DNA from: an uncultured Mediterraneibacter sp.
GTDB taxonomy: Bacteria; Bacillota; Clostridia; Lachnospirales; Lachnospiraceae
NCBI GenBank assembly: GCA_944375765.1
Contig: CALWAR010000060.1
Coordinates: 1 to 55,297, forward strand
DNA: 55,297 nucleotides
Direction: 5' to 3'
Shown piece after piece: positions 3,279-44,617 of the stretch. Within the stretch, counting starts at the first letter, position 1, and each line of letters starts with the position of its first letter. Made by a program: the position numbers and the translations under genes. The notes under the pieces are model-generated. The model was not told the DNA's origin. It searched no databases and worked only from the letters and a program-made list of their open reading frames with translations.

Positions 3279-3307
3279 ATTATATCATGATTTTATGGTA
3301 ATAGCAA
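3279..3307 (-). promoter_or_regulatory. Promoter of the DUF5711-cvpA operon
   Basis: On the minus strand TTGCTA (3302-3307) and TATAAT (3279-3284) are separated by exactly 17 bp. The -35 box lies in the last codons of the LysM gene. The leader of about 95 nt holds an SD-like AAGGAGGAAG without a following ORF and a hairpin built from CGGTCTGT and ACAGACCG. Confidence 0.6.
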
Positions 3308-4495: not shown

Positions 4496-4688
4496 ATATA
4501 TTCCACCTTCCTGATTGAATGATTTTCCCGGCGTCCTCTAAGAGGATAGCACAGAGAAAACATCCGAATTTATCAGTTGGTGTCAGGTAAGTTCGACAAA
4601 ATCACCGGAGACGCTAAACGGCATATTCCGGATTGTATGCGGCCGCCAGGACACAGGACATGTCCGGGCTTTGGCTCGTCGTAGATAC

Positions 4689-4723
4689 AAAAAACCGGGC
4701 ACTTGCTGGAAGAAGTACCCGGT
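4689..4723 (-). terminator. Rho-independent terminator of the transketolase operon
   Basis: On the minus strand ACCGGGTACTT pairs with AAGTGCCCGGT and is followed by a run of Ts. It lies 25 bp after the transketolase C-subunit gene and is one of the clearest terminators in the window. Confidence 0.9.
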
Positions 4724-4748
4724 AAGCCAAGCCGACAGTCTCAGCTCT

Positions 4749-6511: not shown

Positions 6512-6569
6512 TGATCTCTCCTCTTCTCATTATTTCAAATGCTTTATATATCGGTGTCGCCGTTTATGT

Positions 6570-7223
6570 CTACTCGCCGAATACAGCGATATAGTCTTCC
6601 TGGAATTTCCTGATCCCTGCGTCTGTGAGCGGATGATGCGTCATCTGCTCGATCACTTTGTACGGTACGGTAGCGATATCTGCTCCCGCAAGCGCACAGT
6701 CTGTGATATGCATCGGATTGCGGATACTTGCAGCGATGATCTCTGTCCCAATACCTGACGCGGCAAATATCTCGGAGATCTCCGTGATAAGATCCACGCC
6801 TCTTACCGATATATCGTCCAGACGGCCAAGGAACGGGGAGACATATGTAGCTCCGGCTCTGGCGGCAAGGAGCGCCTGATTAGCTGTGAAGATCAGCGTC
6901 ACGTTCGTCTTAACGCCCTCAGCCGCAAGGACTTTCACAGCCTTTAATCCCTCTGCCGTCATCGGGATCTTCACTACCATGTTCGGATGGATCTTTGCGA
7001 TGTCTCGCCCTTCTTTTATCATTCCTTCTGCATCTGTCGTGGTCGCTTTGACTTCTCCGCTGATCGGTCCGTCCACGATGGAAGCGATCTCAGCGATCAC
7101 ATCCTCGAACACCCGCCCCTCCTTGGCTATTAATGACGGGTTTGTCGTTACGCCGCATATCACGCCCATGTCATTGGCCTTTCTGATGTCGTCTACATTC
7201 GCCGTGTCAATAAAAAATCTCAT
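6570..7223 (-). CDS. Transaldolase / fructose-6-phosphate aldolase family protein
   Basis: 217 residues, the size of the short FSA/TalC class of transaldolases. The N-terminal [13 protein letters not shown], the [13 protein letters not shown] loop, the Schiff-base Lys in NMVVKIPMT and the [11 protein letters not shown] segment are all present. The protein either transfers dihydroxyacetone units in the pentose phosphate pathway or cleaves fructose 6-phosphate. The pairing with both transketolase subunits argues for the transaldolase role. It is the first gene of the operon, has an AAGGAGG site and lies behind a strong promoter. Confidence 0.92.
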
Positions 7224-7268
7224 CTTCGTTCCTCCTTAAAACTGGACAAATTTATTGCTTCTTTCCTG

Positions 7269-7297
7269 ATTATATCGGTAAAAAAAACACCGGTCAA
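7269..7297 (-). promoter_or_regulatory. Strong sigma-A promoter of the transaldolase-transketolase operon
   Basis: On the minus strand TTGACC (7292-7297) and TATAAT (7269-7274) are 17 bp apart; the start codon is about 45 bp downstream. The region just upstream (7300-7468) is very AT-rich and holds a 14-bp palindrome ATATTAATTAATAT at 7363-7376 that could be an operator. No ORF is visible there. Confidence 0.8.
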
Positions 7298-7468
7298 CAG
7301 GCTGAAAAATTATTAACAAATAAAACCATTAAATAAATGCGATTATCATACTGATTTTATTTATATTAATTAATATTTAACAACAACCTATTTGATCAGC
7401 GCTTATATTTTGGGCTTATCCAGAGTTTCAGATCAGGGATCGCCAAATTATATTATTAATATTATTCG

Positions 7469-8575
7469 CTATTTTATTAATTTTCTTTTTTTCGACGCCG
7501 GATACGAAGTTGTCCCCCGCACAACGATCTTCGGTTCATATTCTACATGGTAGATGCTGACCGGCTCCATCTCTGTATATCTTTTTATCCGGGAACTCAT
7601 TTTTTTCATGATGATGTCACATGCGTCCATCCCTTTGTAGATAACGAAATGTTCGATCGTGGTGAGAGATACTTTTTTGACTTTCGCAAACAGCGTATTG
7701 TCGCAGCCCATAACGGACATGTCTCCCGGCACTTTGTATTTCTCGTCATAGAGAGCGTCCATGATACCAAACGCGATCATATCGTTAAGGCCGACGATCG
7801 CCGTCAGCTCCCTGTGTTCCCTCAGCAGCTCCTTTGTCAGGTCATAGCCGATCCTGTACTCTGAGTCTACTCCGGGCACATCCTTATCCATCTGCTCATC
7901 TGCGGACTTGATGACGACATGATCCCTGAGCCCCACATTCTGAAATTCTTTGAGAAATCCTTCTACCCGCTTCGACCGCTGCTTCTGCCTCACTGTAAGA
8001 GGAGGCGCCACATAGCCCACATCCTGGTGTCCGAGTTCGAGCAGATGGCGCGCCATAAGGCGTCCGAGCTTCGAGTTGTCCAGTTCTACGGCGTCCACGC
8101 TCAGCTTCTCATTCTGATTGTTGACGATCACAACAGGGATGCGTTTCGAGAGTTCCTCCACCTGAGCCATAAAACACTGGCTCGGATTACACATATAGAT
8201 GATCCCCTGGGGATTCAGAGCGGACGTCATCTTCAGATACCGCTCTTCCAGTCTGAGATCCCTCTGTGTATTGCATACAAAAATCCCGAACCCCTGCTCC
8301 GCAGCACGGGATTCGATTCCCTGGAGCAGCATGACATAATAAGGGTTCGTGAGATTCGGGCTGATGACTACAAGGAGATTCTCTCTTCGCTCTTCCTTTT
8401 TCTTCCTGCGTCTGGGCAGTTCATATCCCAGTTCCGCTGCCGCTTCTTCTACTCTCTGTACGACTTCTTTGGAGAACGAGACATTATATTTCTTGTTCAG
8501 GACCATAGATACCGTTGCCTGTGATACCCCGGCTTTCCTTGCCACATCAGACGACGTCGCCTTTCTTTTTCCCAT
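7469..8575 (-). CDS. LacI/GalR family transcriptional regulator
   Basis: 368 residues. The N-terminal LacI-type helix-turn-helix (SSDVARKAGVSQATVSMVLN) is followed by a hinge and a periplasmic-binding-protein-like sensor domain (VVISPNLTNPYYVMLLQGIE ... VGLNDMIAFGIMDAL), so it should be a sugar- or metabolite-responsive repressor or CcpA-like regulator. I chose the ATG at 8575, because AAGGTGAGG lies just upstream. A longer frame reaching to 8656 would add 27 residues before the HTH, which is not normal. The gene begins 34 bp after recR and may be read from that operon. It lies upstream of the transaldolase operon, its most likely target by position, but this is not proven. Basic C-terminus (SKKRKLIK). 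Confidence 0.9.
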   Translation of the reverse strand: MGKRKATSSDVARKAGVSQATVSMVLNKKYNVSFSKEVVQRVEEAAAELGYELPRRRKKKEERRENLLVVISPNLTNPYYVMLLQGIESRAAEQGFGIFVCNTQRDLRLEERYLKMTSALNPQGIIYMCNPSQCFMAQVEELSKRIPVVIVNNQNEKLSVDAVELDNSKLGRLMARHLLELGHQDVGYVAPPLTVRQKQRSKRVEGFLKEFQNVGLRDHVVIKSADEQMDKDVPGVDSEYRIGYDLTKELLREHRELTAIVGLNDMIAFGIMDALYDEKYKVPGDMSVMGCDNTLFAKVKKVSLTTIEHFVIYKGMDACDIIMKKMSSRIKRYTEMEPVSIYHVEYEPKIVVRGTTSYPASKKRKLIK

Positions 8576-8609
8576 ATCAGACCTCACCTTATATCTGCTG
8601 TCCGGGCCG

Positions 8610-9206
8610 CTACAGTTCTGTCCTGCCCTCAAGCGCCCGCAGCAGAGTAACCTCATCGATATACTCCAGGTCTCCGCCCACCGGCACGCCGCTGGCGATC
8701 CTGCTCACCTTAATTCCCGCAGGCTTGATGAGCTTGCTGATATACATCGCGGTTGTCTCTCCCTCAAGGCTTGAGTTGGTCGCTATGATCACCTCGTCCA
8801 CATCGCCCTGAAGACGCTCCATCAGTTCTTTCAGGCGGATATCTCCCGGACCGATCCCAAGCATCGGAGAGATGGCCCCGTGGAGTACATGATATACACC
8901 GTTATACTTTCCTGTCTTCTCATATGCCGCCAGATCGCGCGGCGTCTCCACGACCATGATCGTCTTCTTATCGCGGTCAGAACTGCTGCAGATCGGACAG
9001 ATCTCCTTGTCCGTCAGAGTGCAGCATATCTTGCAGTATCTGACATTTTTCCTTGCTTCCACGATAGTCCGGGCAAGTCCCTCCACCTGATCTACAGGCA
9101 TATTTATAACGTGGAAAGCAAGCCTCTGTGCGGACTTACTTCCTATACCCGGCAGACGGGAGAACTCTTCGATCAGCCGGCTGATCTGGTTACTGTAATA
9201 ATCCAT
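8610..9206 (-). CDS. recR: Recombination protein RecR
   Basis: 198 residues, the normal RecR length. It has the N-terminal helix-hairpin-helix ([17 protein letters not shown]), a four-Cys zinc motif ([16 protein letters not shown]) and a Toprim domain ([13 protein letters not shown] ... [14 protein letters not shown]). With RecO and RecF it loads RecA at gaps. The frame could begin at a GTG at 9215, but the ATG at 9206 has AGGAG 8 bp upstream and gives the usual N-terminus. It stands in the conserved order dnaX-ybaB-recR. Confidence 0.97.
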
Positions 9207-9245
9207 CTGTCGCACTCCTGTCCTGGCGTATAGACCGGACGTTCA

Positions 9246-9599
9246 TCAGAACATCCCCGGTATGCCGCCGCCAAGTCCTCCTGTCAGCTTCGACATCGCT
9301 GATCCGCTCTCCTCTTCCACCTGGCGAAGGGCTTCGTTCGCAGCAGCCACGATCAGATCTTCCAGCATCTCGATATCGTCGGGATCCACCACTTCTTCCG
9401 AAAGTTTCACTTTCAGCACTTCACGTTTTCCGGATACTGTAACTTCCACTGCTCCGCCGCCCGCTGATGCCGTGAACTCTTTCGACTCCAGTTCTTTCTG
9501 CTGTTCCTCCATCTGACGCTGCATGCGCTGCGCCTGCTTCATAAGATTTGCCATGTTTCCCGGCATGCCTCCGCCGGGAAATCCGCCACGTTTCGCCAT
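9246..9599 (-). CDS. YbaB/EbfC family nucleoid-associated protein
   Basis: 117 residues with the family layout. A Gly-rich, Met-rich N-terminus ([21 protein letters not shown]) is followed by a coiled helix with [16 protein letters not shown]. The beta core is [20 protein letters not shown], then the [16 protein letters not shown] helix. Family members bind DNA as tweezer-like dimers. It lies between dnaX (2 bp upstream) and recR, the order found across bacteria. Confidence 0.95.
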
Positions 9600-9601
9600 A
9601 T

Positions 9602-11206
9602 CTAATCCTCCACTGTTATCTCCATATTGATCTTTTGTTCGATGTCCACGAATGTATCTTCAAAGTATCTGCCCTCTTCCACATGCCGCACTTCCACTTC
9701 GACCTTTTTCCCTGTCCTTTCCTCGATAATGGATTCCAGCTCCTGCACATGATCCTCTCTTCCCACCATGCTCGCCGCAAGACTGTCCGGCAGGACGATC
9801 AGAAGCCGGTTTTCTCCGCCAAGGCTCAGACGGGCTTTTTTAAGATACGTTCTGATCATGCCCGATGTCTCGCCCGCGATGGACCGGAAGTTCTTCACTA
9901 CTTCCTGCACGTCTTCGGGTATCGCGGCCGACAGCGTCTTCTGAACATCCTCTCCTGCCGCCCTGCCGCCGCCTTTTCTTTCCTGCTCTGCGCAGGCAGC
10001 CCCGGCCTGCGGATACCCGCCCTGTGACTGCATCTGCACTGATCTTTCGATACCCTTTTCCACCTTTTCTTCCACCGCACGGATGCGGTCCAGCAGGGAA
10101 TCCTGTGAGCTTTCCATCGCAGGGATGCACAATCTGATGAGAGCTACCTCGAGCATCACACGCTTCTGCGTGGCATATCTCAACTGGCCGGAAAGTTCGG
10201 AAAAGACGCGGATGTAGCGGAACAGCATATCTTCCTCGATCATCTGTGCCTCTTCTTTAAGCTGCATCATATTTTCCGTAGATACATCAAGAACATCCTC
10301 TATATTATCAGAAGTTTTTACCAGAAGCAAGTTCCTCAGATACCATGTAAAGTCCGCCGTTAGCTGGGTGAGTTCCCGACCCTGCGTAACAAGATCTTCC
10401 ACCACGTCCAGCACCCCGGACACATCTCTGGCTATCACTTTGCGCAGCAGCCGGCTGAACACATCCGTATCCACTGCGCCCAGCACTTCGAGCACATTAT
10501 CATATGTGACTTTCTGTCCCATATAAAATGCGATGCACTGATCCAGGAGGCTCAGGGCGTCTCTCATGGAGCCGTCGGCGGCTTTTGCAATATACCGGAG
10601 CGCTTTCTCCTCCACTTCCACCTGTTCCGCTTCCATGAGTTCTTTCATGCGCTCTGTGATCGTCTCGATGCTGATCCGCTTGAAATCATAGTGCTGGCAC
10701 CGCGAAAGGATGGTGATCGGTATCTTGTGCACTTCTGTGGTAGCCAGAATAAATACCACATACTCCGGCGGCTCCTCCAGCGTTTTCAGCAGCGCATTGA
10801 ACGCGCCTATGGACAGCATATGCACCTCGTCGATGATATAGACCTTGTAGCGCCCCTCTGTCGGGCGGTAGGCGACTTCCTCGCGGATCTCTCTGATATT
10901 GTCGACTCCGTTGTTGGAGGCCGCGTCGATCTCGATCACATTCATGGACGAGCCCTCTGCGATGGCTCTGCACATCCCACATTCTCCGCAGGGGCTTCCG
11001 TCCGCCGGCTGTTCGCAGTTTACCGCCTTTGCAAATATCTTGGCGACTGTCGTCTTTCCGGTTCCTCTTGTCCCGCAGAAAAGATATGCATGTCCGATAC
11101 GGTCAGCCCTGATCTGATTCTGCAATGTTGTAATGATATGATCCTGCCCTTTTACATCCTTAAACCCGGTCGGGCGAAACTTCCTGTAAAGTGCCGTATA
11201 TGACAT
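9602..11206 (-). CDS. dnaX: DNA polymerase III subunits gamma and tau
   Basis: 534 residues. The clamp-loader ATPase is complete: Walker [10 protein letters not shown], the zinc module ([16 protein letters not shown]), Walker B/DEVH (IIDEVHML) and the SRC arginine-finger box. Then come the collar domain and a C-terminal tau-like extension with a charged linker (about 385-430). The reaction is ATP-driven loading of the beta clamp. Gene order dnaX-ybaB-recR is standard for Firmicutes, but the SRP RNA gene often found before dnaX in this phylum is absent; phosphofructokinase is there instead. The GAGGTG site fits the start. Confidence 0.97.
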
Positions 11207-12606: not shown

Positions 12607-13953
12607 TTATAGTCTTTTTAACAGGGCCTCTCTCTGCTCCTCATATCCCGGTTTGCCGAGCAGTGCGAACATGTTTTTCTTGTAGCTCTCAACGCCCGGC
12701 TGGTTGAACGGATTAACGCCGAGTAAATATCCGCTCACGCCGCATGCAAACTCAAAGAAATAGAACAGTTCGCCGAGATAATATTCGTTCTGCTCCGGGA
12801 TTTTCACCATAAGGTTCGGTACATTTCCGTCTGTATGTGCGAGGATCGTACCGTTCATCGCACTCTTATTGATAAAATCGACGTTCCTGCCCGCAAGGTA
12901 ATTCAGTCCGTCCAGATCTACCGGCTCTTCATTGATGATGATCTCTTCCCTGGACTTTTCTACATTAAGAACTGTCTCGAACAGGACTCTGTTGCCGTCC
13001 TGAATGAACTGCCCCATAGAGTGCAGGTCTGTCGTAAGGTCTACAGACGCCGGGAAGATACCTTTCTGATCCTTGCCCTCGCTCTCGCCGTAAAGCTGTT
13101 TCCACCATTCGGACACATAGTGCAGGCTCGGCTCATAATTCGCCAGCACCTCCACAGTTTTGCCCTTACGCAGAAGAATGTTTCTTACCGCCGCATATTT
13201 CATCGCATCGTTGTCAGCGAAATCATTTTCGATCGCAGCCTTTCTTCCTGCTGCCGCGCCTTCCATCAGCTTATCGATGTCAGCGCCGCTCACAGCGATG
13301 GGAAGCAGTCCTACTGCCGTCAGTACGGAAAAACGTCCTCCCACATCATCCGGCACTACAAATGTCTCGTATCCCTCTTCTGTCGCGAGATTCTTAAGGG
13401 CGCCTTTCGCCCGGTCAGTTGTTGCATAAATCCTCTTTGCAGCTTCTTCTTTGCCATACTTTTTCTCCAGGATCTCCTTGAATACACGGAAAGCGATCGC
13501 AGGTTCTGTAGTCGTGCCTGATTTGGAGATCATATTGATCGAAAAATCTCTGTCTCCTACCACGTCGATCAGATCTTTGATATAAGTGCTGCTGATGCTG
13601 TTCCCTGCATAGTAGATCTCAGGGGACTTACGGATGTCTTTGGATACCATATTTGCAAAAGAATGTCCGAGGAACTCGATGGCAGCTCTGGCTCCCAGGT
13701 AGGAGCCGCCGATCCCGATCACGAGAAGGACTTCTGAATCCTGGCGGATCTTCTCCGCAGCTTTCTTAATGCGTGCGAACTCTTCTTTATCATAATCCAC
13801 CGGAAGATCGATCCATCCAAGGAAATCATTTCCCGCGCCGGTCTTAGAGAGCAGCTTGTCTTTCGCCTGTGCAGCCAGCTCGCTCATGTACTGCATCTCA
13901 TGCTCCTGTACAAAACTGCATGCTTTTGAATAGTCAAATGTTACTTTGCTCAT
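12607..13953 (-). CDS. pgi: Glucose-6-phosphate isomerase
   Basis: 448 residues from ATG 13953 (ATG 13956 is an equal option; GAGGAAGG lies just upstream of both). A longer frame to 13989 adds residues before the conserved start and is rejected. The SIS-type sugar-phosphate fold is visible, with [28 protein letters not shown] and the PGI signature [16 protein letters not shown]. It interconverts glucose 6-phosphate and fructose 6-phosphate and feeds the phosphofructokinase encoded next. It has its own promoter and terminator. Confidence 0.97.
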
Positions 13954-34219: not shown

Positions 34220-34254
34220 TATATTTTTATTGTTTTTCGATAAATTACAGATAT

Positions 34255-34306
34255 TAAAAGACCGTCCGGGCTGCTCCGCTTCGCACGGATACAGCCTCAG
34301 ACGGCC
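34255..34306 (-). terminator. Terminator of the DUF62-ECF operon
   Basis: On the minus strand a long imperfect stem, GGCCGTC...GGCTG with CAGCC...GACGGTC, closes over 46 nt and is followed by TTTTAAT. It lies 30 bp after the S-component gene and ends the five-gene transcript. Confidence 0.85.
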
Positions 34307-34335
34307 TGTTCTTTCACTCTGTCCTGATTTTATTC

Positions 34336-34896
34336 CTACTCTTTTGAAAGAGTTCCTTTTTTTGATCTTGTCTTGCTGTACAGCGCAAGAAGAATCGTTC
34401 CGATCACACCTGCTGATACCGCATTGCTGACCGCTGCGACAACGCCCTGTGTAAATACAAGGTTTGCCGGCTCTGCATAGACAACGATATCGAGCACCGG
34501 AGCTACGATCACCCATGAGATCACATTGGCGATGACCTGGTAAATGTTAAAACGAAGAATATCTTTTCCCCCGAATTCTCCTTCATCTACTTTCAGCTTC
34601 GGATACACGAAACCTGTGATAAAGCATGTCAGCCCGCTTGCCACTACCCAGCTCCACCACGGAGATCCGTACTGGATCGCGTCAGACAGTCCATGTCCGA
34701 TCAGACCGATGAGCAGTCCGGCGATCGGCCCGAACAGCGCCGAGAAGAAAGCGCCCACGCCATAGGCGGTCTTGATATCCGTCTCCGGGATGCCCGTCGG
34801 GATCTTCACATACATAAACAGTACGATGAAAAGCGCGGCTCCAAGTCCCGTTGCAACGATCGTCTTCGTCTTGAAGTCAAAAAGTTTTTTCTCCAT
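34336..34896 (-). CDS. ECF transporter S component (UPF0397 type)
   Basis: 186 residues with five to six membrane segments. KTIVATGLGAALFIVLFMYVKIPTGIPETDI, the YGVGAFFSALFGPIAGLLIGLIGHGLSDAI stretch and GSPWWSWVVASG match the UPF0397 family of substrate-binding S components of energy-coupling factor importers. The ligand of this family is not settled to my knowledge. It is the last gene of an operon that holds its T and fused A-A' parts and two SAM hydrolase genes, so a ligand related to S-adenosylmethionine, adenosine or methionine is plausible. AGGAGG precedes the ATG. The 134-bp gap upstream contains a CCGGC/GCCGG hairpin. Confidence 0.88.
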   Translation of the reverse strand: MEKKLFDFKTKTIVATGLGAALFIVLFMYVKIPTGIPETDIKTAYGVGAFFSALFGPIAGLLIGLIGHGLSDAIQYGSPWWSWVVASGLTCFITGFVYPKLKVDEGEFGGKDILRFNIYQVIANVISWVIVAPVLDIVVYAEPANLVFTQGVVAAVSNAVSAGVIGTILLALYSKTRSKKGTLSKE

Positions 34897-35030
34897 TACA
34901 TCTTCCTCCTGTAAGATAAATAATAAAATGTTTCTCTCTGCCCCGGCTCATTGCCGGAAGCTGTATCAACAGCAGCAGCGTCGCCTGCGGGGACATCTCC
35001 TGCCATCAACCGTTTGGTCTGGATCCTCCC

Positions 35031-35876
35031 TCAGTCTTTTGTGAACGTCACTTTCCACTCCGGTCCGTAGGAGAGTCCGTACTTCTCGCAGAAACTGCCC
35101 TGTGTCACTGCCATGGCAGCTTTCATAAGTTCATTGTTATATATCATCGGCTGTCCTTTTTCGACAAATCCGAAACTTTTGTGGAAAAGGACTTTTTCGT
35201 CAAATACCGTTTTCCCCTCATGGGTGATCACTGCACGGATCATGTCCCCGTACTCAAATCCCGCGCTGTTGAACGACCGCAGCGGGATATTCGTCCAGAG
35301 ATTGCCGAAATTGGGATCGTTGATCTCGAAAATCCCCTCTGCTCTTCCCGGTCCGACAACAGGTTCGAGGATCGGGTGCTCCACGATCTCCTCCACAGGA
35401 TACTCCGATCCCACTCCTGCGAAATCTATGATTCCGCCTGCAAGACGGGCTGCAGTGTATCCGAACAGGTCTCTTCCGTGGAAGATCGCCACTTCTTCTG
35501 TGCCTTTTCCTCTTAAACGGTTTACAGATTCATCGATCTCTCTTACTGCCTCGATACCGATGAATCTTTTCACATGTGTCAGCGATCCGTTGTCGGGAGA
35601 GACAACAAAGTGGCCGTCTTTTGTCTTCGCCACACACGCCCGGCGGCTCGTCCCCACCCCCGGATCCACGACGGATACATAGATCGTCCCCTCCGGCCAG
35701 AATGGTAAACTCTGATACAGCCGGTAGCTCGCGCTCCAAGTATCGTACTGGGGCAGTTCATGCGTCCCGTCCATGATCTCAAGTTCACGGTCCACGCTTT
35801 TGACCACGCCGTACATGGAGCTTACCGCTCCTTCTTTATATGTAAAATCTGTCTGAAATACAAGAATCGGTTTCAT
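35031..35876 (-). CDS. SAM hydrolase / SAM hydroxide adenosyltransferase (DUF62), copy a
   Basis: 281 residues from ATG 35876, set by GGAGAGG upstream; a longer frame to 35903 is rejected. The DUF62 (SAM_HAT) family splits S-adenosylmethionine to adenosine and L-methionine. The catalytic triad is intact: Asp71 in VDPGVG, Arg78 in TSRRA and His133 in FHGRDLF. Other family motifs are FQTDF at the start, SPDNGSLTHV and a C-terminal beta-barrel with FEINDPNFGNLWTNI. It is fourth in the operon, between the T and S components. It shares the layout and the exact catalytic spacing with the second copy at 38567-39427, but they differ through most of the sequence, so the duplication is not recent. Confidence 0.93.
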   Translation of the reverse strand: MKPILVFQTDFTYKEGAVSSMYGVVKSVDRELEIMDGTHELPQYDTWSASYRLYQSLPFWPEGTIYVSVVDPGVGTSRRACVAKTKDGHFVVSPDNGSLTHVKRFIGIEAVREIDESVNRLRGKGTEEVAIFHGRDLFGYTAARLAGGIIDFAGVGSEYPVEEIVEHPILEPVVGPGRAEGIFEINDPNFGNLWTNIPLRSFNSAGFEYGDMIRAVITHEGKTVFDEKVLFHKSFGFVEKGQPMIYNNELMKAAMAVTQGSFCEKYGLSYGPEWKVTFTKD

Positions 35877-35962
35877 AAATATATCCTCTCCTTTCAAATG
35901 CACCTCTTACGCCGCTCTTTTATGCCGTTTGCAGGAGTCTCTTCCTGCAGGCCGCATGAGCG

Positions 35963-36796
35963 TTATACAAAAGGATTATAAAATCTGGATCCGTTCACAA
36001 AGAAAGATACGCCGATCGATCCCGCAAGCACGGCGGCGGAAAAAATCATCACCAGAAAGTCATTCTTTCCCAGCGGCTTTCCTGCATACCATGTTCTTTT
36101 CTTATGCTTTCCGAATCCTCTCAGATCCATCGCGTTGCTGATGAGCTCGATCCGGTCGAGCGTTGTAAAGATCAGCGGCACGAAGATATTCATCATATTC
36201 TTTATGCGGGCGCCCAGCTTTTCTTTTCTGGACATGTCAAGTCCTCTGCTCTGCTGAGCCAGCGAGATGTCCTGATAATCCCGGATCATATCCGGGAAAT
36301 ACCTCAAAGTCAGCGCCAGAGCATACGCAGCTTTATAGCTCACCCCGATCCGGTTTAATGACGCCGCGAACTCGCTCGGGTTCGTCGTCAGAAGAAAGAT
36401 GATCCCAAGCGGTATCCCCGATGCATATTTCAGGATCTTTGTCACCTGGTAGAGGATCTGCTCCAGCGTTACCGTATATCTGCTGTTAAACCGGAAGATC
36501 TCATGGACAGTCCCGTAGATCTCCGTCCCGTACTGCGGGCTGAACAGATAGGTCAGACAGAAGTTCAGCAAAAGGAACACTCCCACATAGATCATCATCG
36601 TCCTGATCTGGCGAAAACTGATCTCTGATACTTTGAAAAAGCAGAACGAAAGCACCAGCACAAAAATGATATACCGGATATCATAGGAGAACATGACTGA
36701 AAATGTAAGGCAGATAAAAGCGACCAGCTTCGTAAGCCCTGACAGATTATAAATAAAATTATCTCTGTCTATATAGTCAAACAGTTTCGTTTTCAT
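35963..36796 (-). CDS. ECF transporter T component (EcfT)
   Basis: 277 residues from ATG 36796, which has an AAGG site; a longer frame to 36817 is possible. About five membrane helices, and the two Arg-Gly coupling motifs of EcfT: SLAQQSRGLDM and AMDLRGFGKHKKRTWY. They transmit ATPase motion to the S component. The gene overlaps the ATPase gene by 20 bp. A CTGCAGGAAGAGACTCCTGCA-type hairpin lies just after the stop, before the DUF62a gene. Confidence 0.92.
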   Translation of the reverse strand: MKTKLFDYIDRDNFIYNLSGLTKLVAFICLTFSVMFSYDIRYIIFVLVLSFCFFKVSEISFRQIRTMMIYVGVFLLLNFCLTYLFSPQYGTEIYGTVHEIFRFNSRYTVTLEQILYQVTKILKYASGIPLGIIFLLTTNPSEFAASLNRIGVSYKAAYALALTLRYFPDMIRDYQDISLAQQSRGLDMSRKEKLGARIKNMMNIFVPLIFTTLDRIELISNAMDLRGFGKHKKRTWYAGKPLGKNDFLVMIFSAAVLAGSIGVSFFVNGSRFYNPFV

Positions 36797-38510
36797 TGCG
36801 CCTTGTCCCCCTTTCATAGTCTATGAAGTTCTGTACGAAAGAGGACGGATCCTCGATCCCTGTACTGACGGCAAGCTCATACAGCGAGGTCAGTTTCAGA
36901 TTGGCCTGTTCTGTGATCGATCTGTCGGTGAGTATCTCTACCGCGCTCGCATCTCCGATCTTCTTTCCTCCTGAGATCACGATTGCATGCGGCGTGTATT
37001 CCAGCATCAGATGCATGTCGTGTGTGATCATGATGATCGTCACTCCCCGGCTGTTCAGGCTCTTTAGAAACTCCATGATCTCCGTATAATGATGGTAATC
37101 CTGCCCTGCCGTAGGCTCGTCCAGTATGAGGATCTGAGGTTCCAGAACAAGCACGGAAGCGATCGTCACACGCTTTTTCTGTCCGAAGCTGAGCGCTGAC
37201 ACCGGCCATTTTTTAAACGGCAGAAGCCCGCAGATCTTCAGCGCCATATCCACTTTCGGCTCGATCTCTTCCTCCGGGACCCCACGGATGCGAAGTCCCA
37301 GCGCTACCTCATCGTATATCATCGGCTTGCAGATCATCTGGTTCGGATTCTGCATGACATACCCGATCTTTTCAGAGCGCTCTTTGATCGTCTTGTCTGC
37401 CATGTCCTCACCGCTGTAATACAGTTTTCCCTCATCCTCTTTTACAAATCCGCAGATCAGTTTGGCGAGAGTACTCTTGCCCGCTCCGTTCGTCCCGACG
37501 ATGCTGACCATCTCTCCCTCCTGAATGGAAAAACTGATATCCTGAAGTATTTTTCTCTTTTTCGTATACTGGAAACTGATGTGATCCGCCTCAAGTATGA
37601 CCGGACGTTCTTTTGGCTTTTCCTTTTTCGCCTGCGCCCTGTTCCATGCGAGGAGAGGCTCCCGGATCTGCTCTGTGTCAAGTGTGTCTAGCCGCCCCGC
37701 ATGCATGTCGGGAGTTACTTTGATCCCCGCGTATTTCATCGCAGTTACATAAAGAGGTTCACGGATCCCGAGTTCCGGCAGGATATCCGCAGCCATCAGT
37801 TCATCCGGCGGCAGATCCGCCGCGATCCGTCCGTCGCTGATCACGATCACCCGATCCACATCCCGGTAAAGCACATCTTCCAGTCTGTGTTCGATGATGA
37901 TCACTGTCTTTTCCTGATCTTTCCATACCCGGTCGATCAGATCGATAGCCGTCTTTCCCGTAGCAGGATCCAGATTCGCCAGAGGCTCGTCAAAGAGGAG
38001 GATATCCACATTATCCACCATGACGCCGGCAAAGGATACTCTCTGCTTCTGTCCGCCGGAAAGTTCAAAGGGCGAAGATTTCAGAAGTTCACCCATATCT
38101 ACGATATCCGTGACTTTCTGCACCGTGTCTTTCATTTTATCCAGTTCGACACAGTCGTTTTCGAGTGCAAACGCCACGTCTTCCCCCACGGTCAGTCCGA
38201 TAAACTGTCCGTCCGAATCCTGGAGGACGGTTCCCACCATCTTGGAGAGCTGAAAGATATCCATGTCTTTCGTCTCCTGCCCCATGATCCTGAGACTTCC
38301 GTTGATCTCGCCTTTATAGGAAAACGGGATCAGTCCGTTCAGGCAGTGTCCCAGAGTACTTTTCCCACTTCCGCTTGGACCTACGATGAGTATTTTTTCC
38401 CCTTTGAAGATCGTCAGATCGATATTATGGAGCGTTGGCTCCGCCTGACTGAAATACTGAAACTGAAAGTCCTTAAATTGTATTACCGGAGTTTTTTCCC
38501 TCTCGCTCAT
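36777..38510 (-). CDS. ECF transporter fused ATPase (EcfA-EcfA')
   Basis: 577 residues made of two ABC ATPase domains in tandem. Domain 1 has Walker A VGPSGSGKSTLGH, signature LSGGQKQR and Walker B DILLFDEPLANLDP. Domain 2 has VGTNGAGKSTLAK, LSFGQKKR and ILILDEPTAGQD. Q-loops (VLQDSDGQFIG, VMQNPNQMI) are visible, with the ECF-type Asn/Gln patterns. A linker of about 50 residues joins the domains. One fused chain instead of two genes is common in the dedicated (group I) ECF importers, which fits a transporter with its own S component. It is the second gene of the operon after DUF62b. Confidence 0.95.
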   Translation of the reverse strand: MSEREKTPVIQFKDFQFQYFSQAEPTLHNIDLTIFKGEKILIVGPSGSGKSTLGHCLNGLIPFSYKGEINGSLRIMGQETKDMDIFQLSKMVGTVLQDSDGQFIGLTVGEDVAFALENDCVELDKMKDTVQKVTDIVDMGELLKSSPFELSGGQKQRVSFAGVMVDNVDILLFDEPLANLDPATGKTAIDLIDRVWKDQEKTVIIIEHRLEDVLYRDVDRVIVISDGRIAADLPPDELMAADILPELGIREPLYVTAMKYAGIKVTPDMHAGRLDTLDTEQIREPLLAWNRAQAKKEKPKERPVILEADHISFQYTKKRKILQDISFSIQEGEMVSIVGTNGAGKSTLAKLICGFVKEDEGKLYYSGEDMADKTIKERSEKIGYVMQNPNQMICKPMIYDEVALGLRIRGVPEEEIEPKVDMALKICGLLPFKKWPVSALSFGQKKRVTIASVLVLEPQILILDEPTAGQDYHHYTEIMEFLKSLNSRGVTIIMITHDMHLMLEYTPHAIVISGGKKIGDASAVEILTDRSITEQANLKLTSLYELAVSTGIEDPSSFVQNFIDYERGTRRNENETV

Positions 38511-38566
38511 TCCTGCCTCCTCCGCTTATCATCTCCTGACATAGTGTGCAGATCATTTTCTCTGTA

Positions 38567-39427
38567 CTAATTTTCATAAATAAGCCGCGGCGCTTTCCTT
38601 ATCGTGATCCGCCAGTTTGTCCCTGTTCCTATATTATATGCCCGTGCAAAACTTCCCTGATTGATCGCCACTGCCATACAGTCAAGGCTGTTCACATAGA
38701 CAAGGGGTTCTCCTACATATACGTCCGCAAAACTTTTGGCATATACAAGGATGTTTTTATAGAGTGTCCTCGTCTCATTTTCAATGCTGATCTCTACTCT
38801 TCCCCCGTGTTTTACCCCCAGTTTCAGGAACATCTCTCTTGTGATGTTCGTCCAGAGGCTTCCGAACCTGACGTCCAGCACATCGATCGTGCCGCTCACT
38901 TTGTCCCCGTCACAGACCGGCTCAACGACCGGTAGCTCGATCACGCTGGCCGCCGCCACTTCCGGCCCTACTTCTTCAAACGTGATAACTCCTGCCGCAA
39001 GTTTTGCTCCTGTGTAGGCATAGATATCTCTTCCGTGGAAAGTGTAGCTCTCTCCTGAATTTGGAAGACGGTTCACGCTCTCATCGATCACTCTTGCTTT
39101 CTCGATCCCGATGATCCTTTTTACATGTGTAAGGGTTCCATTGTCCGGCGTTACGATATACTGTCCTGTTTTTGTTTTTACAACGATACTCCGTCTTGTA
39201 GATCCGACTCCCGGATCTACAACGCTTACAAATACTGCTCCTTCCGGCCAGTAACTGACTGTCTGGATCAGCCGGTACGACGCCTCCCATATATCATACT
39301 GGGGGATCTCATGTGTAAGATCTGAGATGCTCAGGTCCTGACATACTCCATAGGCGACTCCGTACATTGCGCTGACCGCTCCGTCCGCTGTTCCAAAATC
39401 TGACTGTAAAATAAGTGGTTTCATCAT
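38567..39427 (-). CDS. SAM hydrolase / SAM hydroxide adenosyltransferase (DUF62), copy b
   Basis: 286 residues (ATG 39424 is an equal start). The triad is Asp71 (VDPGVG), Arg78 (STRRS) and His131 (FHGRDIY), and LQSDFG, TPDNGTLTHV and VLDVRFGSLWTNI are present. This is the first gene of the operon: DUF62b, fused ECF ATPase, T, DUF62a, S. The product should release adenosine and methionine from SAM in the cytoplasm. Two active-looking copies in one operon with an importer suggest either two substrates or a heteromeric enzyme; family members form trimers. Confidence 0.93.
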   Translation of the reverse strand: MMKPLILQSDFGTADGAVSAMYGVAYGVCQDLSISDLTHEIPQYDIWEASYRLIQTVSYWPEGAVFVSVVDPGVGSTRRSIVVKTKTGQYIVTPDNGTLTHVKRIIGIEKARVIDESVNRLPNSGESYTFHGRDIYAYTGAKLAAGVITFEEVGPEVAAASVIELPVVEPVCDGDKVSGTIDVLDVRFGSLWTNITREMFLKLGVKHGGRVEISIENETRTLYKNILVYAKSFADVYVGEPLVYVNSLDCMAVAINQGSFARAYNIGTGTNWRITIRKAPRLIYEN

Positions 39428-39485
39428 TTTTTCTTTCCTTTACCCGCTAAGGAGCGCACATTCGAGCTGTTCCTTGCATTCTTAA

Positions 39486-39514
39486 AGTATAATGATTATC
39501 CCGGCAAGTGTCAA
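39486..39514 (-). promoter_or_regulatory. Promoter of the DUF62-ECF operon
   Basis: On the minus strand TTGACA (39509-39514) and TATACT (39486-39491) are exactly 17 bp apart. The leader is about 55 nt and can form a stem AAGGA/TCCTT around GCTCGAATGTGCGC. Confidence 0.8.
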
Positions 39515-39616: not shown

Positions 39617-40378
39617 TTATAGTCTGCTTTCTATTTTATTTACATATTTTTTCATGAGGATCGCCCACTCTGATATATTATCATCATTAAAATGAGTTGC
39701 GATACCGCTCACACTGATCGCTGCATATACTTTTTTGTTCCGGTCCAGTATCGGCATAGCGATGCATCTGATCCCGAACTCATGCTCCATGTCGTCGATC
39801 GCGTATCCTCGCTGTCTGGTCCGGGTGAGCTCCTGATATAATCTGTCTTTGTCAGTGATGCTGTTCTCTGTAAATGCCTCCAGTTCCTGGTGTTCCAGAT
39901 AATACTGTATCTCTGGCTCACCCATATTCGCCAGCATGGCCTTTCCCAGACCTGTGCAGTACATCTGCGCCCGCTCGCCGAGGATGGATCTCATCAGATC
40001 CACTGAATCTGCAGGATACATCGCTTCCAGATACAGCACTTCCTCTCTGTATGGAACTGCGAGATACACTCTTTCTCCTGTCTGATTTGCAAGTTCCTGC
40101 ATGTACGGCATAGCGATTTTTGTGATTGAATATGTATCGCCGAGCGCCTTGCTCAGATTAAAAATCTGAATTCCCAGGCAGTATTTGCCTGACTCCTCGT
40201 CCTGCTCCAGATATTCCATTGCCTTTAAAGTCGAAAGTATGTTGTGCACCGTACTTTTGTACAAACCAAAATGTTCACTTATCTCAGTCACTCCAAGTAT
40301 CGGTTTCTCTGTAAAGTAGTTCAGAATCTCCAAGGCTTTCTGGAGGCTTTTAACTTTAATCTCAGAATTATCTGTCAT
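39617..40378 (-). CDS. IclR family transcriptional regulator
   Basis: 253 residues. The N-terminal winged helix (SLQKALEILNYFTEKPILGVTEISEHFGLYKSTVHNILSTLKAMEYLEQ) is followed by the IclR effector domain (VYLAVPYREEVLYLEAM, RAQMYCTGLGKAMLA, DDMEHEFGIRCIAMPI, YAAISVSGIATHF). It binds a small acid or sugar. It has its own promoter, and stands between the sialidase-like/ABC locus and the DUF62-ECF operon, so either may be its target. The sialidase-like gene ends only 88 bp upstream. Confidence 0.93.
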   Translation of the reverse strand: MTDNSEIKVKSLQKALEILNYFTEKPILGVTEISEHFGLYKSTVHNILSTLKAMEYLEQDEESGKYCLGIQIFNLSKALGDTYSITKIAMPYMQELANQTGERVYLAVPYREEVLYLEAMYPADSVDLMRSILGERAQMYCTGLGKAMLANMGEPEIQYYLEHQELEAFTENSITDKDRLYQELTRTRQRGYAIDDMEHEFGIRCIAMPILDRNKKVYAAISVSGIATHFNDDNISEWAILMKKYVNKIESRL

Positions 40379-40416
40379 CTGTTCCTCCTGTTCTCCTGTA
40401 CCGAACGCCGTTTAAT

Positions 40417-40445
40417 ATTATATCACTGAATTTTTTAAGATTCAA
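40417..40445 (-). promoter_or_regulatory. Promoter of the IclR gene
   Basis: On the minus strand TTGAAT (40440-40445) and TATAAT (40417-40422) are 17 bp apart. Next to the -10 box is the short palindrome AACGCCGTT, a possible autoregulatory site. Confidence 0.65.
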
Positions 40446-40466
40446 TGCATTTTTCAGGATAACAGA

Positions 40467-41510
40467 TCATAAGTGCTTTTGATTATCTTCACATTTAAAT
40501 TCGATTTCCCAGAAAGCGATATTTTTTCTTTTCCATGTATAGGTTATAAATACAGAACCATTATCATATATAATGCATGGATATGAAAACTCTCCTTCTC
40601 CCTCATCCAGTATCATTATATGTTCCCAGTGGATCCCGTCATCCTCTGAACAGTACAGGGATATCGGCGTCCTTTTTCCCCAGCTTTCACCTACCGGATT
40701 ACAGACAAGATATACTGTTCCGTCCGAAGTGCAGACTGCATCAATACCGCTGTTATTATTAGGTATGTCTGTCGGTTCAGGATCACTCCACGTTTCACCC
40801 TCATCCTCCGATTTACTGTGATAAATCCACCCCTCTGAGCTTCTCATAAGCATATGAACAGATCCTTTTCCCTCCCATAAAGCCGGCTGTATTATTCCTC
40901 TTCCGCGATAGGATTGTTCAGATACCGGAATTTCTTTATAATTCTCGTTTAATTTCTGCAACTTTGGAAGATCGATCTGAACCTCCTCGCTTTTTCTCCA
41001 TGTGATCCCGTCATCATCAGATATATCTGCAAACGAACGCCACGGGCCATTTTCAAGAGATCCCGGAGCCAGGATCCTTCCACTTTTCAGACGGATCGGT
41101 TGATTTCTTACAGGTCCTCTGCCCCCGCTGTCTCCTTCTACAAGTTCTCCTGACCCGCTCCACGTTTCACCGCTGTCATCTGATATTTTATACATCGTCT
41201 TCCATGTGGCTATTTCTTTTCCGCATTTATAAAACAGCATGATCCTGTCCGGAGCAACCTTAAACAGCACTGGATTCCAGCATGGTATATTTTTATGCTC
41301 TGCGATAACTTCCGGGGTGTTCCATATACCGTTTTTTCTTACAGTCCCCCATATTTTTACATCTTCTGCTCCCTCAGCGCTTCCCTGAAACCATACGCAT
41401 ACAAAATCCCCGTTATCAAGTCTTATAAGTGACGACGCATGGCATGATTCTTGTTCAAGATCTGAATGAAATACATTGCTTCTCTCTTTTTTAATAAATA
41501 TACTGTCCAT
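40467..41510 (-). CDS. Sialidase-fold (BNR/Asp-box) protein, no signal peptide
   Basis: 347 residues with four Asp boxes, S-x-D-x-G-x-T-W type, at about 110-118 (SDDSGETWS), 164-172 (SDDDGITWR), 234-242 (SEDEGETWS) and 288-296 (SEDDGIHWE). These mark a six-bladed beta-propeller as in exo-sialidases. There is no signal peptide, so the protein acts in the cytoplasm. It begins 5 bp after a sugar permease gene and ends the operon with an aldolase of the NanA/DapA family. An intracellular glycosidase or lyase acting on an imported acidic sugar is likely; the classic FRIP motif was not found, so true sialidase activity is uncertain. Confidence 0.8.
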   Translation of the reverse strand: MDSIFIKKERSNVFHSDLEQESCHASSLIRLDNGDFVCVWFQGSAEGAEDVKIWGTVRKNGIWNTPEVIAEHKNIPCWNPVLFKVAPDRIMLFYKCGKEIATWKTMYKISDDSGETWSGSGELVEGDSGGRGPVRNQPIRLKSGRILAPGSLENGPWRSFADISDDDGITWRKSEEVQIDLPKLQKLNENYKEIPVSEQSYRGRGIIQPALWEGKGSVHMLMRSSEGWIYHSKSEDEGETWSDPEPTDIPNNNSGIDAVCTSDGTVYLVCNPVGESWGKRTPISLYCSEDDGIHWEHIMILDEGEGEFSYPCIIYDNGSVFITYTWKRKNIAFWEIEFKCEDNQKHL

Positions 41511-41515
41511 GCTCT

Positions 41516-42346
41516 CTACCCCTTGATGCCGGAACTTGCAATTCCTTCAACGAAATGTTTCTGTAGTATCAGAAATACAATGAGTGTCGGTATTACTGCC
41601 ATACAGCATCCTGCAAGAGACGTACCGTACTGAAACTGCGCATTTGAGTTGACAGAACCCATAAACTGGGCAATACCGACAGGAAGTGTTTTTAATTCAT
41701 CCTGGCGGATACATATCATCGGCCACAGGAAACTGTTCCAGTTTGCAATAAATGTTAAAATAGTGACTGTTGAGAGCGCGGGCTTGGACAAAGGAAGCAT
41801 GATCTGAGCAAATATTCTGAACTCGCCGCATCCGTCTATGCGCGCTGCTTCCTCCAGTTCGCCCGGCAGCCCTTTAAAAAAGCTTGTAAGTATAAAAATA
41901 CTTGTTACATTTGCTACTGATGGAAGTATAATTCCCGCATAAGTATTCAGCAGTCCTATTTTTGAACAAAGAAGATACAGGGGGATCATATACGCCTGAA
42001 TAGGGATCAACAACATTGCCACTATTGTTCCATATATGATCTTTCTTCCGCGAAATCTGTATCTTGCAAGTGCGTAGGCTGCCAGCGAAGAAAGTATAAG
42101 GATAAGAACAGTTCCTGTTACTGCTGTAATAAGACTGTTTTTCATCCATGAAAGATAAGGATATCTCTCAAGTACCTGCGTATAGTTTGACAATGTAGCA
42201 ATATCCGGTATCCATTTCGGGGGATAACTTGTTATATCTGTTTCCGGTTTGACCGAACACACAAGTGCCCATGCGATCGGAAACAAAAATACGATACATA
42301 TAAGTATTGTTACTATATATTTTACGCTTCCTCTTAATTTTTTCAT
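41516..42346 (-). CDS. Sugar ABC transporter permease (MalG-type)
   Basis: 276 residues from ATG 42346, with GGAGA upstream in the end of the other permease gene; an ATG at 42361 is less likely. Six membrane segments and the EAA loop ELEEAARIDGCGEFRIFAQIMLPLSKPAL are present. It forms the import channel with the partner permease. No ATPase gene is in the operon, so a shared MsmK-type ATPase elsewhere must serve, as is usual for this class. Confidence 0.93.
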   Translation of the reverse strand: MKKLRGSVKYIVTILICIVFLFPIAWALVCSVKPETDITSYPPKWIPDIATLSNYTQVLERYPYLSWMKNSLITAVTGTVLILILSSLAAYALARYRFRGRKIIYGTIVAMLLIPIQAYMIPLYLLCSKIGLLNTYAGIILPSVANVTSIFILTSFFKGLPGELEEAARIDGCGEFRIFAQIMLPLSKPALSTVTILTFIANWNSFLWPMICIRQDELKTLPVGIAQFMGSVNSNAQFQYGTSLAGCCMAVIPTLIVFLILQKHFVEGIASSGIKG

Positions 42347-42350
42347 AGGT

Positions 42351-43217
42351 TCAATCTCCATCGTTATTTTTCAGAATCTTATTCTGAATCCCGATCAGAA
42401 GAATCAGAATTACCAGTATAGCTACTTCAATAGCCGAACCATATCCGAGGTCATAGTTCTGGAACGCCGTTGTATAGAGATACTGGACCATTGTCAGAGT
42501 TGAAGTTCCAGGTCCTCCGGCAGTCATTGTATAGATCTGGTCGAATAACTGTACCGTATTAACCAGTGTTAAAGTAATGACCATGGATGCCACTGGTTTG
42601 AGCATTGGACAAGTTATTCTGAAAAATATCTGAATCCTGGTAGCTCCATCCATCTCTGCCGCTTCATACAGATCTCTTGGTATTCCCTGAAGTCCTGCAA
42701 GAAACAATACCATATTGTATCCAAGATAGGTCCATATCACTACAATGGATATAGATATGATCGCTATGTTTTCATCTGTAAGCCACGGTACTCCCTGGCT
42801 CCCTAACTTTTTTAAATAGTAGTTCAGTATTCCGAAATTATTGTCATACATCCATGACCACATGATACCTACTACTGCCGGGATCAATACATAAGGAATG
42901 ATCGATACTACCCGTCCTACGCTTTTAAATCTCATTTTCTGGTTTAAAAGGATAGCCAGGAGAAGACTAAGTATAATAAGCGGCGGAAGAGTCAGTAAAA
43001 AGAACTTGAAAGTATTCCAGAGAGCTATCATAAAATACTCGTCTGTAAAAAGACGTTTAAAATTATCAAGCCCTGCAAATTCAGGTATACCGGCCAGGTT
43101 CCAGTCCATGAAACCGATAAACAGCCCCGCTATACTTGGACCAAGCCTGAAGATAATAAATATGATCATGTATGGTAAAAGGAATAATGCTGCTATTCTT
43201 CCCTGCTTTCTTTTCAT
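42351..43217 (-). CDS. Sugar ABC transporter permease (MalF-type)
   Basis: 288 residues from ATG 43217, which has AAAGGAG upstream; the frame to 43250 would start inside a hairpin and is rejected. Six membrane segments and the EAA loop DLYEAAEMDGATRIQIFFRITCPMLKP are clear. It pairs with the MalG-type permease next to it. It is separated from the binding-protein gene by a strong hairpin. Confidence 0.93.
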   Translation of the reverse strand: MKRKQGRIAALFLLPYMIIFIIFRLGPSIAGLFIGFMDWNLAGIPEFAGLDNFKRLFTDEYFMIALWNTFKFFLLTLPPLIILSLLLAILLNQKMRFKSVGRVVSIIPYVLIPAVVGIMWSWMYDNNFGILNYYLKKLGSQGVPWLTDENIAIISISIVVIWTYLGYNMVLFLAGLQGIPRDLYEAAEMDGATRIQIFFRITCPMLKPVASMVITLTLVNTVQLFDQIYTMTAGGPGTSTLTMVQYLYTTAFQNYDLGYGSAIEVAILVILILLIGIQNKILKNNDGD

Positions 43218-43241
43218 TATAATTTCTCCTTTTTCATACAT

Positions 43242-43266
43242 CCGCCGCATTGTTATAATGCGGCGG
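43242..43266 (-). terminator. Intercistronic hairpin between binding protein and permease
   Basis: CCGCCGCATT (43242-43251) pairs perfectly with AATGCGGCGG (43257-43266) around a 5-nt loop. No T-run follows. Hairpins in this position often protect the mRNA of the binding protein or cause partial termination, so that the binding protein is made in excess. Confidence 0.75.
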
Positions 43267-43288
43267 ACAAATCCTTCTCTTTTTTCTG

Positions 43289-44617
43289 TCAGTTATTATT
43301 CTCCATCACTGTGTTCAGATCTTCTTCCAGGCTTCCTGTTATTTCTGTCGCGTCCTTATTATTCAGGGTTGCGTCCTGCGCCATAGTAAGGATCGGACTC
43401 GGAGCCTTGGATGAGAAAAGCGATACTGCCGCCGGATGAGCCGGAAGGAACTTAACATAATCTTTTTCTGCATAGTATGCATCGATTCCCTGCAGTTTCT
43501 CAGACTCTTCCTGGGCTTTGATATTAGCCGGTATCTGTCCTGACAGAGCCCATTCCGCTGAATTTTCAGATAACCATCTTACAAATTCCTGAGCCGCTGC
43601 CTGTTTGTTTTCATCCGGATTCTGGCTTAACGGGAAAGCAAGCAGCTCTGCTGCTCCCCATACAGCTTTTTCATCAAAGATTTGCGGATATTCTGCTGTA
43701 TTCCAGTTAAATGATACGTCTGTAAGTCCCGAAAGCTGCCAGTTGCCATCTATGATCATCGCTACTGTACCCGCCTTGAAATCATCAATCGGAGATTTTT
43801 CTCCAACAGGCACAACATTGTACTTGTAGATGAGATCTTCGATAAACTGAATCGCTTTATCAGATTTTTCTGTATCTATTGTGATACTTTCCATATCAAC
43901 TGTAAAAGGATTGTATCCCTGCTGATTGATCATTGAATAATACTGATAGAAAGTATGGTGGTTCTGGAGAAAACCAAATCCGTATTGTACAATATTATTT
44001 TTATCAAACCCTTCTTCTGTAGCATTTTTCCCGTTTGAATCTATTGTAAGTTTCATAGCTGTTTCGATCAGCTCATCTCCCGTGGCAGGAGGATTTGTTA
44101 TTCCGGCCGCATCATACATATCCTGATTATAGTATAAAGCATGCATATTTATATCAATTGGCACGCCGTAGAGTGTTCCGTCATATTTGCATCCTTCCCA
44201 CGCCACTTTTTCAAAGTCGCTTTCATTCAGGTCCATCGCAGCGACCTGCTCTGCATCCAAAACTCCCATATCTACAAACTGTCCCATTTCAAAAGTATGC
44301 ATTGCTATAATATCCGGAGCCGCCCCTGCCTGATAGTCCGCGAGAAATTTTGTAAATATTTCGCTCCACTGAAGAGAGGTAAATTCTACGGTGATTATAT
44401 CCTGGCTTTCATTAAATTCATCAACAAGCGCCTGCATTTTATCAAGATCAGCGCCTGTCCATCCTCCATAATATGTGATCGTACAGGGTTCAATTTCACT
44501 GCCTTCAGATCCGCTGTTCTGGCTTCCTGCGCTGCTTCCTCCGCATCCGGCAAACATAGATATTGTCAACGCCGTAACTGCGGCCATTGATAATATACGA
44601 GTAGTTTTTCTTTTCAT
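43289..44617 (-). CDS. Extracellular sugar-binding lipoprotein (ABC importer)
   Basis: 442 residues. A lipoprotein signal (MKRKTTRILSMAAVTALTIS, lipobox FAGC with Cys25) is followed by a Ser/Gly linker and a family 1 solute-binding domain (ITYYGGWTGADLDKMQALVDEFNE ... KVAWEGCKYDGTLYGVPIDINMHALYYNQDMYDAAG). It captures a sugar and hands it to the two permeases. It follows the aldolase gene by 16 bp. Confidence 0.95.
   Translation of the reverse strand: MKRKTTRILSMAAVTALTISMFAGCGGSSAGSQNSGSEGSEIEPCTITYYGGWTGADLDKMQALVDEFNESQDIITVEFTSLQWSEIFTKFLADYQAGAAPDIIAMHTFEMGQFVDMGVLDAEQVAAMDLNESDFEKVAWEGCKYDGTLYGVPIDINMHALYYNQDMYDAAGITNPPATGDELIETAMKLTIDSNGKNATEEGFDKNNIVQYGFGFLQNHHTFYQYYSMINQQGYNPFTVDMESITIDTEKSDKAIQFIEDLIYKYNVVPVGEKSPIDDFKAGTVAMIIDGNWQLSGLTDVSFNWNTAEYPQIFDEKAVWGAAELLAFPLSQNPDENKQAAAQEFVRWLSENSAEWALSGQIPANIKAQEESEKLQGIDAYYAEKDYVKFLPAHPAAVSLFSSKAPSPILTMAQDATLNNKDATEITGSLEEDLNTVMENNN

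Follow-up and report, generated by a model that had tools for sequence, protein, structure and literature searches.

An ECF importer operon with two SAM hydrolase-type genes in Mediterraneibacter, a candidate module for methionine salvage

The 55,297-nucleotide stretch of an uncultured Mediterraneibacter sp. analysed here (contig CALWAR010000060.1, hereafter the window) carries an apparent operon in which two S-adenosylmethionine (SAM) hydrolase-type genes of the DUF62 family, DUF62a and DUF62b, are combined with the genes of an energy-coupling factor (ECF) importer. With moderate confidence, we read it as a module for the salvage of methionine, together with adenosine, in which SAM, or a very close adenosyl-sulfonium compound, is taken up and hydrolysed. 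The S component of the importer, energised by the operon's own EcfT and fused EcfA proteins, would bring in this compound; the DUF62 enzymes would split it with water via an Asp-Arg-His triad, giving methionine and adenosine; and in some relatives the genes would be induced when methionine is short. What the sequences establish is the presence of the genes and of the hydrolase triad, the conservation of the linkage, and a methionine T-box in front of the genes of some relatives. From these we infer that SAM or a related compound is the ligand, that DUF62 hydrolyses it and that salvage is the purpose.

The linkage of DUF62 with ECF genes was followed in several samples of genomes. In Lachnospiraceae, 13 of 150 genomes, the window genome included, contain the DUF62 domain PF01887, and all 13 have at least one DUF62 copy beside ECF S or T genes. 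Besides the window, 13 of 16 loci from this family are linked, the rest being the contig-end pieces L123 and L126 (L-numbers label individual loci in relatives) and L127, which was taken for its S gene. In a second order, probably Lactobacillales, 85 of 246 genomes, spread over 29 of 64 genera, contain PF01887; among 40 loci chosen to cover all 29 genera, DUF62 is ECF-linked in 36, mostly in the order DUF62-S-A-T, and four are unlinked, namely L163, which is a contig-end piece, and L139, L140 and L149. A sample at phylum level gave PF01887 in 23 of 398 genomes, and five of the 23 loci taken are linked; 17 of the 18 unlinked loci were placed in the DUF62 tree described below, none within its ECF-type clade. 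Starting from the S side, 63 loci were scored for DUF62 within 8.5 kb (L066, where S and A share one called open reading frame, was counted by hand as linked), and 41 of the 50 S loci of at least 55% identity have it. Linked loci include Clostridium, Fusibacter, Christensenellaceae, Pseudobutyrivibrio and Chloroflexota (Ornatilinea, Anaerolineaceae). Since the order DUF62-S-A-T or S-A-T-DUF62 is kept across phyla, enzyme and ligand appear to belong together. An initial annotation of this DNA had proposed that a SAM hydrolase-type enzyme is coupled to the importer, a proposal that this conserved linkage supports. At one linked locus, L041, a KptA/Tpt1 RNA 2'-phosphotransferase gene and a Fic gene lie between EcfT and DUF62a (7514-8912).

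The tie to methionine comes from the leaders of relatives. An Rfam search of 40 leader regions, 37 of them from the second order (L110, L132, L144 and L163 were left out), detected a T-box upstream of the first gene in 14 (6/20 and 8/20 in two batches); two of the 14 score under the gathering threshold (88.5 and 83.6 against 93), and a far-upstream T-box in L133 was not counted. Read from the alignments, the specifier is the methionine codon AUG in all 14 cases and is followed by a purine. T-boxes raise transcription with uncharged tRNA, and transcription is therefore expected to rise with uncharged tRNA-Met in these relatives. Three of the T-boxes, those of L139, L140 and L149, precede a DUF62 gene that belongs to the ECF-type clade and has no ECF genes next to it. 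T-boxes were also sought with a loose regular expression, which was dropped as evidence in favour of Rfam because its full pattern matched 128 of 1435 background genes as well. At the Rfam gathering threshold, neither the window nor the DUF62 loci searched contain a SAM, FMN, TPP or cobalamin riboswitch.

Methionine-type neighbours were observed at three loci, each kind once. In L110, MetQ, M20 peptidase, MetN and MetI-like genes are followed by genes for a Trep_Strep membrane protein, DUF62 and S, the NCBIfam matches being the best hits but below their cut-offs. A fused MsrAB (methionine sulfoxide reductase) gene in L113 ends 5 bp before the DUF62 gene of a DUF62-S-A-T operon (7066-8909), and an M20 dipeptidase gene stands between EcfT and the second DUF62 gene in L117. 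Recovery of a SAM-type compound is the best of the roles that the initial annotation had listed and is now backed by the methionine T-boxes of relatives, with the ligand as its conjectural part. That annotation holds in part; it missed the methionine link, a methionine-related name already in print and a conserved leader of DUF62b.

Both window DUF62 proteins exceed the cut-offs for PF01887 and PF20257, and they are the sole PF01887 matches in the whole assembly, which is 92.8% complete. The hydrolase triad consists of D71, R78 and H131 in DUF62b and occupies the same columns in DUF62a; across the ECF-linked set and the window, the Asp is present in 132/132 sequences, the Arg in 131/132 and the His in 130/132. 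The alignment thus confirms that both copies keep the triad, as the initial annotation had stated. In a tree that left out open reading frames below 240 aa or of 420 aa and more (L111 among them), the ECF-type DUF62 proteins form a single clade of 136 sequences (support 0.996), which divides at its base into type a (56 sequences, support 0.992) and type b (80 sequences, support 0.911). Just four members of the clade lie outside an ECF cluster, namely L123, at a contig end, and L139, L140 and L149. The 48% identity between DUF62a and DUF62b and the split at the base of the clade rule out a recent duplication, in line with the earlier view that the copies differ too much for one.

Sixteen alignment columns set type a apart from type b, each at 80% or more within its type. 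They include E24 (a) versus D15 (b), just past the N-terminal (S/T)DF motif, and N201 (a) versus S190 (b) within the FG(N/S)LW motif. We take these two motifs to line the substrate site in fluorinase. Because separating columns adjoin or fall within them, the alignment suggests that the two types differ in substrate preference. By locus, 18 have type a only, 43 type b only and 37, the window included, have both; some one-type loci stop where the contig does or belong to genomes that encode the partner at another place. In the second order, 37 of 40 loci have type b only, L132 and L144 have both and L163 is too short to place, and the Chloroflexota loci mostly have type a only, L055 having both. 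Obligate mixed trimers find no support, as loci with one DUF62 type are common; the mixed trimers envisaged in the initial annotation are not needed where most Chloroflexota loci seen carry type a only and 37/40 second-order loci type b only.

In the window, the five genes form one apparent transcription unit on the minus strand (39514-34256), in the order DUF62b, fused EcfA, EcfT, DUF62a and an S component of the UPF0397/PF07155 family. The features are as follows.

39617..40378, minus strand: IclR-family regulator directly upstream of the operon (Pfam)
39486..39514, minus strand: promoter of sigma-70/A type, TTGACA-17-TATACT, with 11/12 consensus matches
39436..39477, minus strand: conserved 5' leader of DUF62b, GCAAGGA...hairpin...UCCUUAGC-N5-AAGGA, the last element being the Shine-Dalgarno sequence (alignment, pattern searches)
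38567..39427, minus strand: DUF62b (HATb), SAM hydrolase-type, 286 aa (PF01887, 170.2 bits; PF20257, 80.6 bits)
36777..38510, minus strand: EcfA, fused double ATPase, 577 aa (two ABC_tran domains and DUF3744)
35963..36817, minus strand: EcfT, transmembrane coupling protein of the CbiQ family (85.6 bits)
35031..35903, minus strand: DUF62a (HATa), SAM hydrolase-type, 290 aa (PF01887, 146.3 bits; PF20257, 60.7 bits)
34336..34896, minus strand: S component, UPF0397/PF07155, MtsA-like by gene order (PF07155, 165 bits; NF010182, 235.5 bits)
34256..34307, minus strand: intrinsic terminator 3' of the S gene (from the fold of 34246-34312)

The EcfA and EcfT genes overlap by 41 nt, and the other intergenic gaps measure 56, 59 and 134 nt. 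The length of DUF62a is counted from a GTG, an ATG (MKP) 27 nt inside being an equally likely start. A promoter scan of the minus strand within the operon returned just two sites, each with 9/12 matches. The terminator region (34312-34246) folds at -35.5 kcal/mol with a z-score of -5.7 and a U-run after the stem, and was missed by a simple terminator scan. For the window genome, the 11/12 promoter and this terminator confirm the earlier statement that the five genes share one of each. The promoter is visible by eye in most of 13 aligned related upstream regions, the exceptions being L030 and L115; the shared promoter applies to the window genome, as DUF62b can be separate from the remaining genes in relatives (L114, L121). 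The S, T and A components are encoded together in the window, a feature of ECF group I, in which a transporter has its own module, and the S component is up to 96% identical to Mediterraneibacter orthologues. The region directly upstream of the operon (39617-44617) encodes the IclR regulator, a BNR-repeat (sialidase-like) protein and what looks, from the sequences alone, like a sugar-type ABC importer; IclR could be part of this upstream cluster and not of the operon.

Directly after the promoter, DUF62b has a conserved leader with the consensus GCAAGG(A/G), a variable hairpin, CCUUAGC, 4 or 5 nt and AAGGA. With a strict pattern for it, the window and 15 loci were hit, each time ahead of DUF62b; the remainder of the 2.28 Mb scanned and the reversed sequences gave no match. 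Further Lachnospiraceae type b loci, such as L115, L118, L119 and L121, do not have the leader. A tighter pattern gave seven matches in seven of 397 family genomes (one each), all before DUF62b with a promoter just upstream, and its reversed control gave at least six scattered matches among those listed, so what is rare is the placement of the pattern and not the pattern alone. The stem has 95.5% standard pairs. Six of its seven pairs are invariant, and the seventh is changed on both sides in 5/16 sequences and unpaired in five others; support from covariation is accordingly thin, since six pairs never vary and one often fails to pair. Minimum-energy folds formed the stem in all six leaders tested and left the Shine-Dalgarno site free, with z-scores of -3.75, -2.27 and -1.89, which are unusual, and of -0.94, -0.28 (window) and 0.21, which are not. 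The leader in the window has no Rfam match at the gathering threshold. The hairpin leader may be regulatory.

Several observations weigh against methionine salvage by SAM import. By Rfam, 26 of the 40 leader regions have no T-box, nor do seven Clostridia/Chloroflexota-type loci, and the window itself has neither a T-box nor a riboswitch at the gathering threshold. The genomes of L139, L140 and L149 have a T-box and DUF62, although the UPF0397 S alignment matched nothing in them, so DUF62 can serve without this importer and could recover methionine from internal SAM. DUF62 was found near none of the 13 S loci of 52% identity or less, four of which end at a contig edge soon after S. Nine S loci of at least 55% identity also have no DUF62 nearby, four of them intact (L039, L040, L053, L061) and five ending at a contig edge (L027, L044, L050, L072, L073); whole-genome PF01887 searches in six of these nine genomes gave no match for L053, L061 and L072 and found the domain elsewhere for L027, L039 and L040. 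The same search of an S. agalactiae genome gave no match. The window genome encodes MetK and a short protein matching the MetH B12-activation domain (33.8 bits), and this bacterium may therefore be able to do without methionine uptake. The family model NF010182 of NCBIfam, matched above its cut-off, names the S family a riboflavin transporter, and the reading does not account for the GNAT acetyltransferase and GntR neighbours seen in Clostridia. The co-occurrence of UPF0397 S components with DUF62, on which the initial annotation had staked its proposal, therefore stands for the closer S components (41/50) and the Lactobacillales-type loci (36/40) and fails for the distant ones (0/13). Among DUF62-less S-A-T sets, that of L079 lies beside a thiamine-binding protein/NMT1-type ABC importer (3299-9636) and that of L087 beside a TPP riboswitch (13157-13271); in view of this neighbour and the riboswitch, a compound related to thiamine may be what the more distant S components bind.

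Chief among the rival explanations, with about a quarter of our credence, is that methionine is recovered from SAM made by the cell itself. The importer would then carry another methionine source (methionine, a precursor or a derivative), and DUF62 would act separately on the cell's SAM, mainly the (R,S) epimer, under starvation. It would account for L139, L140 and L149, where DUF62 is kept under a methionine T-box although an S component of this family is missing, and two published points favour it as well: StDUF62 prefers (R,S)-SAM (PMC12120602), and a 'Methionine precursor' ECF family is listed in a TCDB-based paper (PMC3654945). Speaking against it, the gene order kept across phyla suggests that enzyme and ligand belong together, and draining the SAM pool during methionine starvation would presumably be costly.

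It is rather improbable that the ligand is some other adenosylated or sulfonium compound, such as decarboxylated SAM or an adenosyl vitamin, from which DUF62 would strip the adenosyl group so that the rest is used, with the GNAT of Clostridia handling the released amine. A GNAT gene is found in the cluster at 10 S-side loci and nine further loci (Pfam was run on two), and the 16 columns separating type a from type b would also fit such a ligand. Many Clostridia loci carry a GntR-type regulator and a GNAT acetyltransferase, either as separate genes or as one protein of ~510 aa: Pfam identifies GNAT fused to a GntR-type DNA-binding domain in L038 (4925-6478), and L114, L115, L116, L120 and L121 encode similar long proteins, as judged by length and profile match only. 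However, the AUG T-box indicates methionine as the limiting product, no GNAT was flagged in the 40 second-order loci, and the window genome has no close GNAT copy (best 22% identity), the IclR gene standing upstream instead.

A riboflavin importer, with DUF62 adjoining it by chance or for cofactor balance, is very unlikely. The NF010182 match (235.5 bits against a cut-off of 99) and a weak match to RibU 3p5n (E 0.0045) point that way; on the other side, no FMN riboswitch reaches the gathering threshold in the window or the DUF62 loci searched, some relatives have methionine T-boxes instead, and a family name is no test of function. The riboflavin name weighs against SAM import and against recovery of the cell's own SAM alike, but it rests on that family name. 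Least credible of all is the use by DUF62a and DUF62b of a nucleophile other than water (a halide or another) to make a 5'-modified adenosine, an option of the initial annotation that homology to fluorinase and chlorinase could suggest and that is disfavoured because both proteins keep the triad that hydrolases are reported to have and halogenases to lack, the aligned chlorinase having other residues at all three triad columns.

Import of SAM or a close relative, the reading we prefer, can be set beside systems already described, among which the transporter type, the enzyme family and, in annotation, the methionine link of the transporter were known. A review states that a DUF62 protein hydrolyses SAM to methionine and adenosine, and it places the Asp-Arg-His triad only in DUF62 hydrolases and in neither halogenase (PMC10491745). 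The window proteins resemble the DUF62/SAM hydroxide adenosyltransferases PH0463, MJ1651 and StDUF62 in both Pfam domains, in the triad and in their homology to solved chains, and differ from them in forming a separate ECF-tied clade with an ancient a/b duplication and fixed a/b differences. They belong to the same sequence family as fluorinase and chlorinase (SalL), but keep the triad that these enzymes are said to lack, as the alignment shows for the chlorinase. RibU, despite its weak match, and the remaining solved ECF S components are too distant in sequence for a ligand to be transferred.

A further likeness is to Mts (MtsA/MtsC in gene tables, MtsU in PMC3654945), an ECF gene set tied to methionine regulation, as relatives here are by their methionine T-boxes. 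The term 'methionine-regulated ECF transporter' occurs in print, both in gene tables and in running text (PMC9423846, PMC5066943, PMC5408102), and in an S. suis gene table (PMC9423846) 'MtsA of methionine-regulated ECF transporter' stands beside a gene labelled RNA polymerase delta. A DUF62-like chain in the PDB, 7ccg, is labelled 'DNA-directed RNA polymerase subunit delta'. As this chain and the MtsA neighbour in that table share a label, the name of RNA polymerase delta may hide the DUF62-ECF link in annotations. Gene order suggests that MtsA belongs to the UPF0397 family. The window operon departs from Mts in its two DUF62 genes, its fused ATPase, its lack of a T-box and the IclR gene that precedes it. 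No title or abstract opening among the literature matches listed joins DUF62 with this ECF transporter; an earlier mention, for example in the founding ECF survey (Rodionov 2009), is possible.

A more speculative picture, which we hold to be a long shot, joins these strands. Gut and other bacteria would import extracellular SAM through ECF transporters as a methionine source, and the ancient DUF62 paralogues would share out (S,S)- and (R,S)-SAM, which would slowly interconvert outside cells, so that both are recovered; type b, in this genus and some relatives, would be further controlled by the small leader RNA. Altogether, the methionine T-boxes that precede DUF62-ECF operons make the role of DUF62, an enzyme family of disputed purpose, concrete and open to test, and they point to a candidate ligand for an orphan S component listed as a riboflavin transporter in NCBIfam. 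If the proposed salvage is true, SAM would join the compounds that cells scavenge through ECF transporters.

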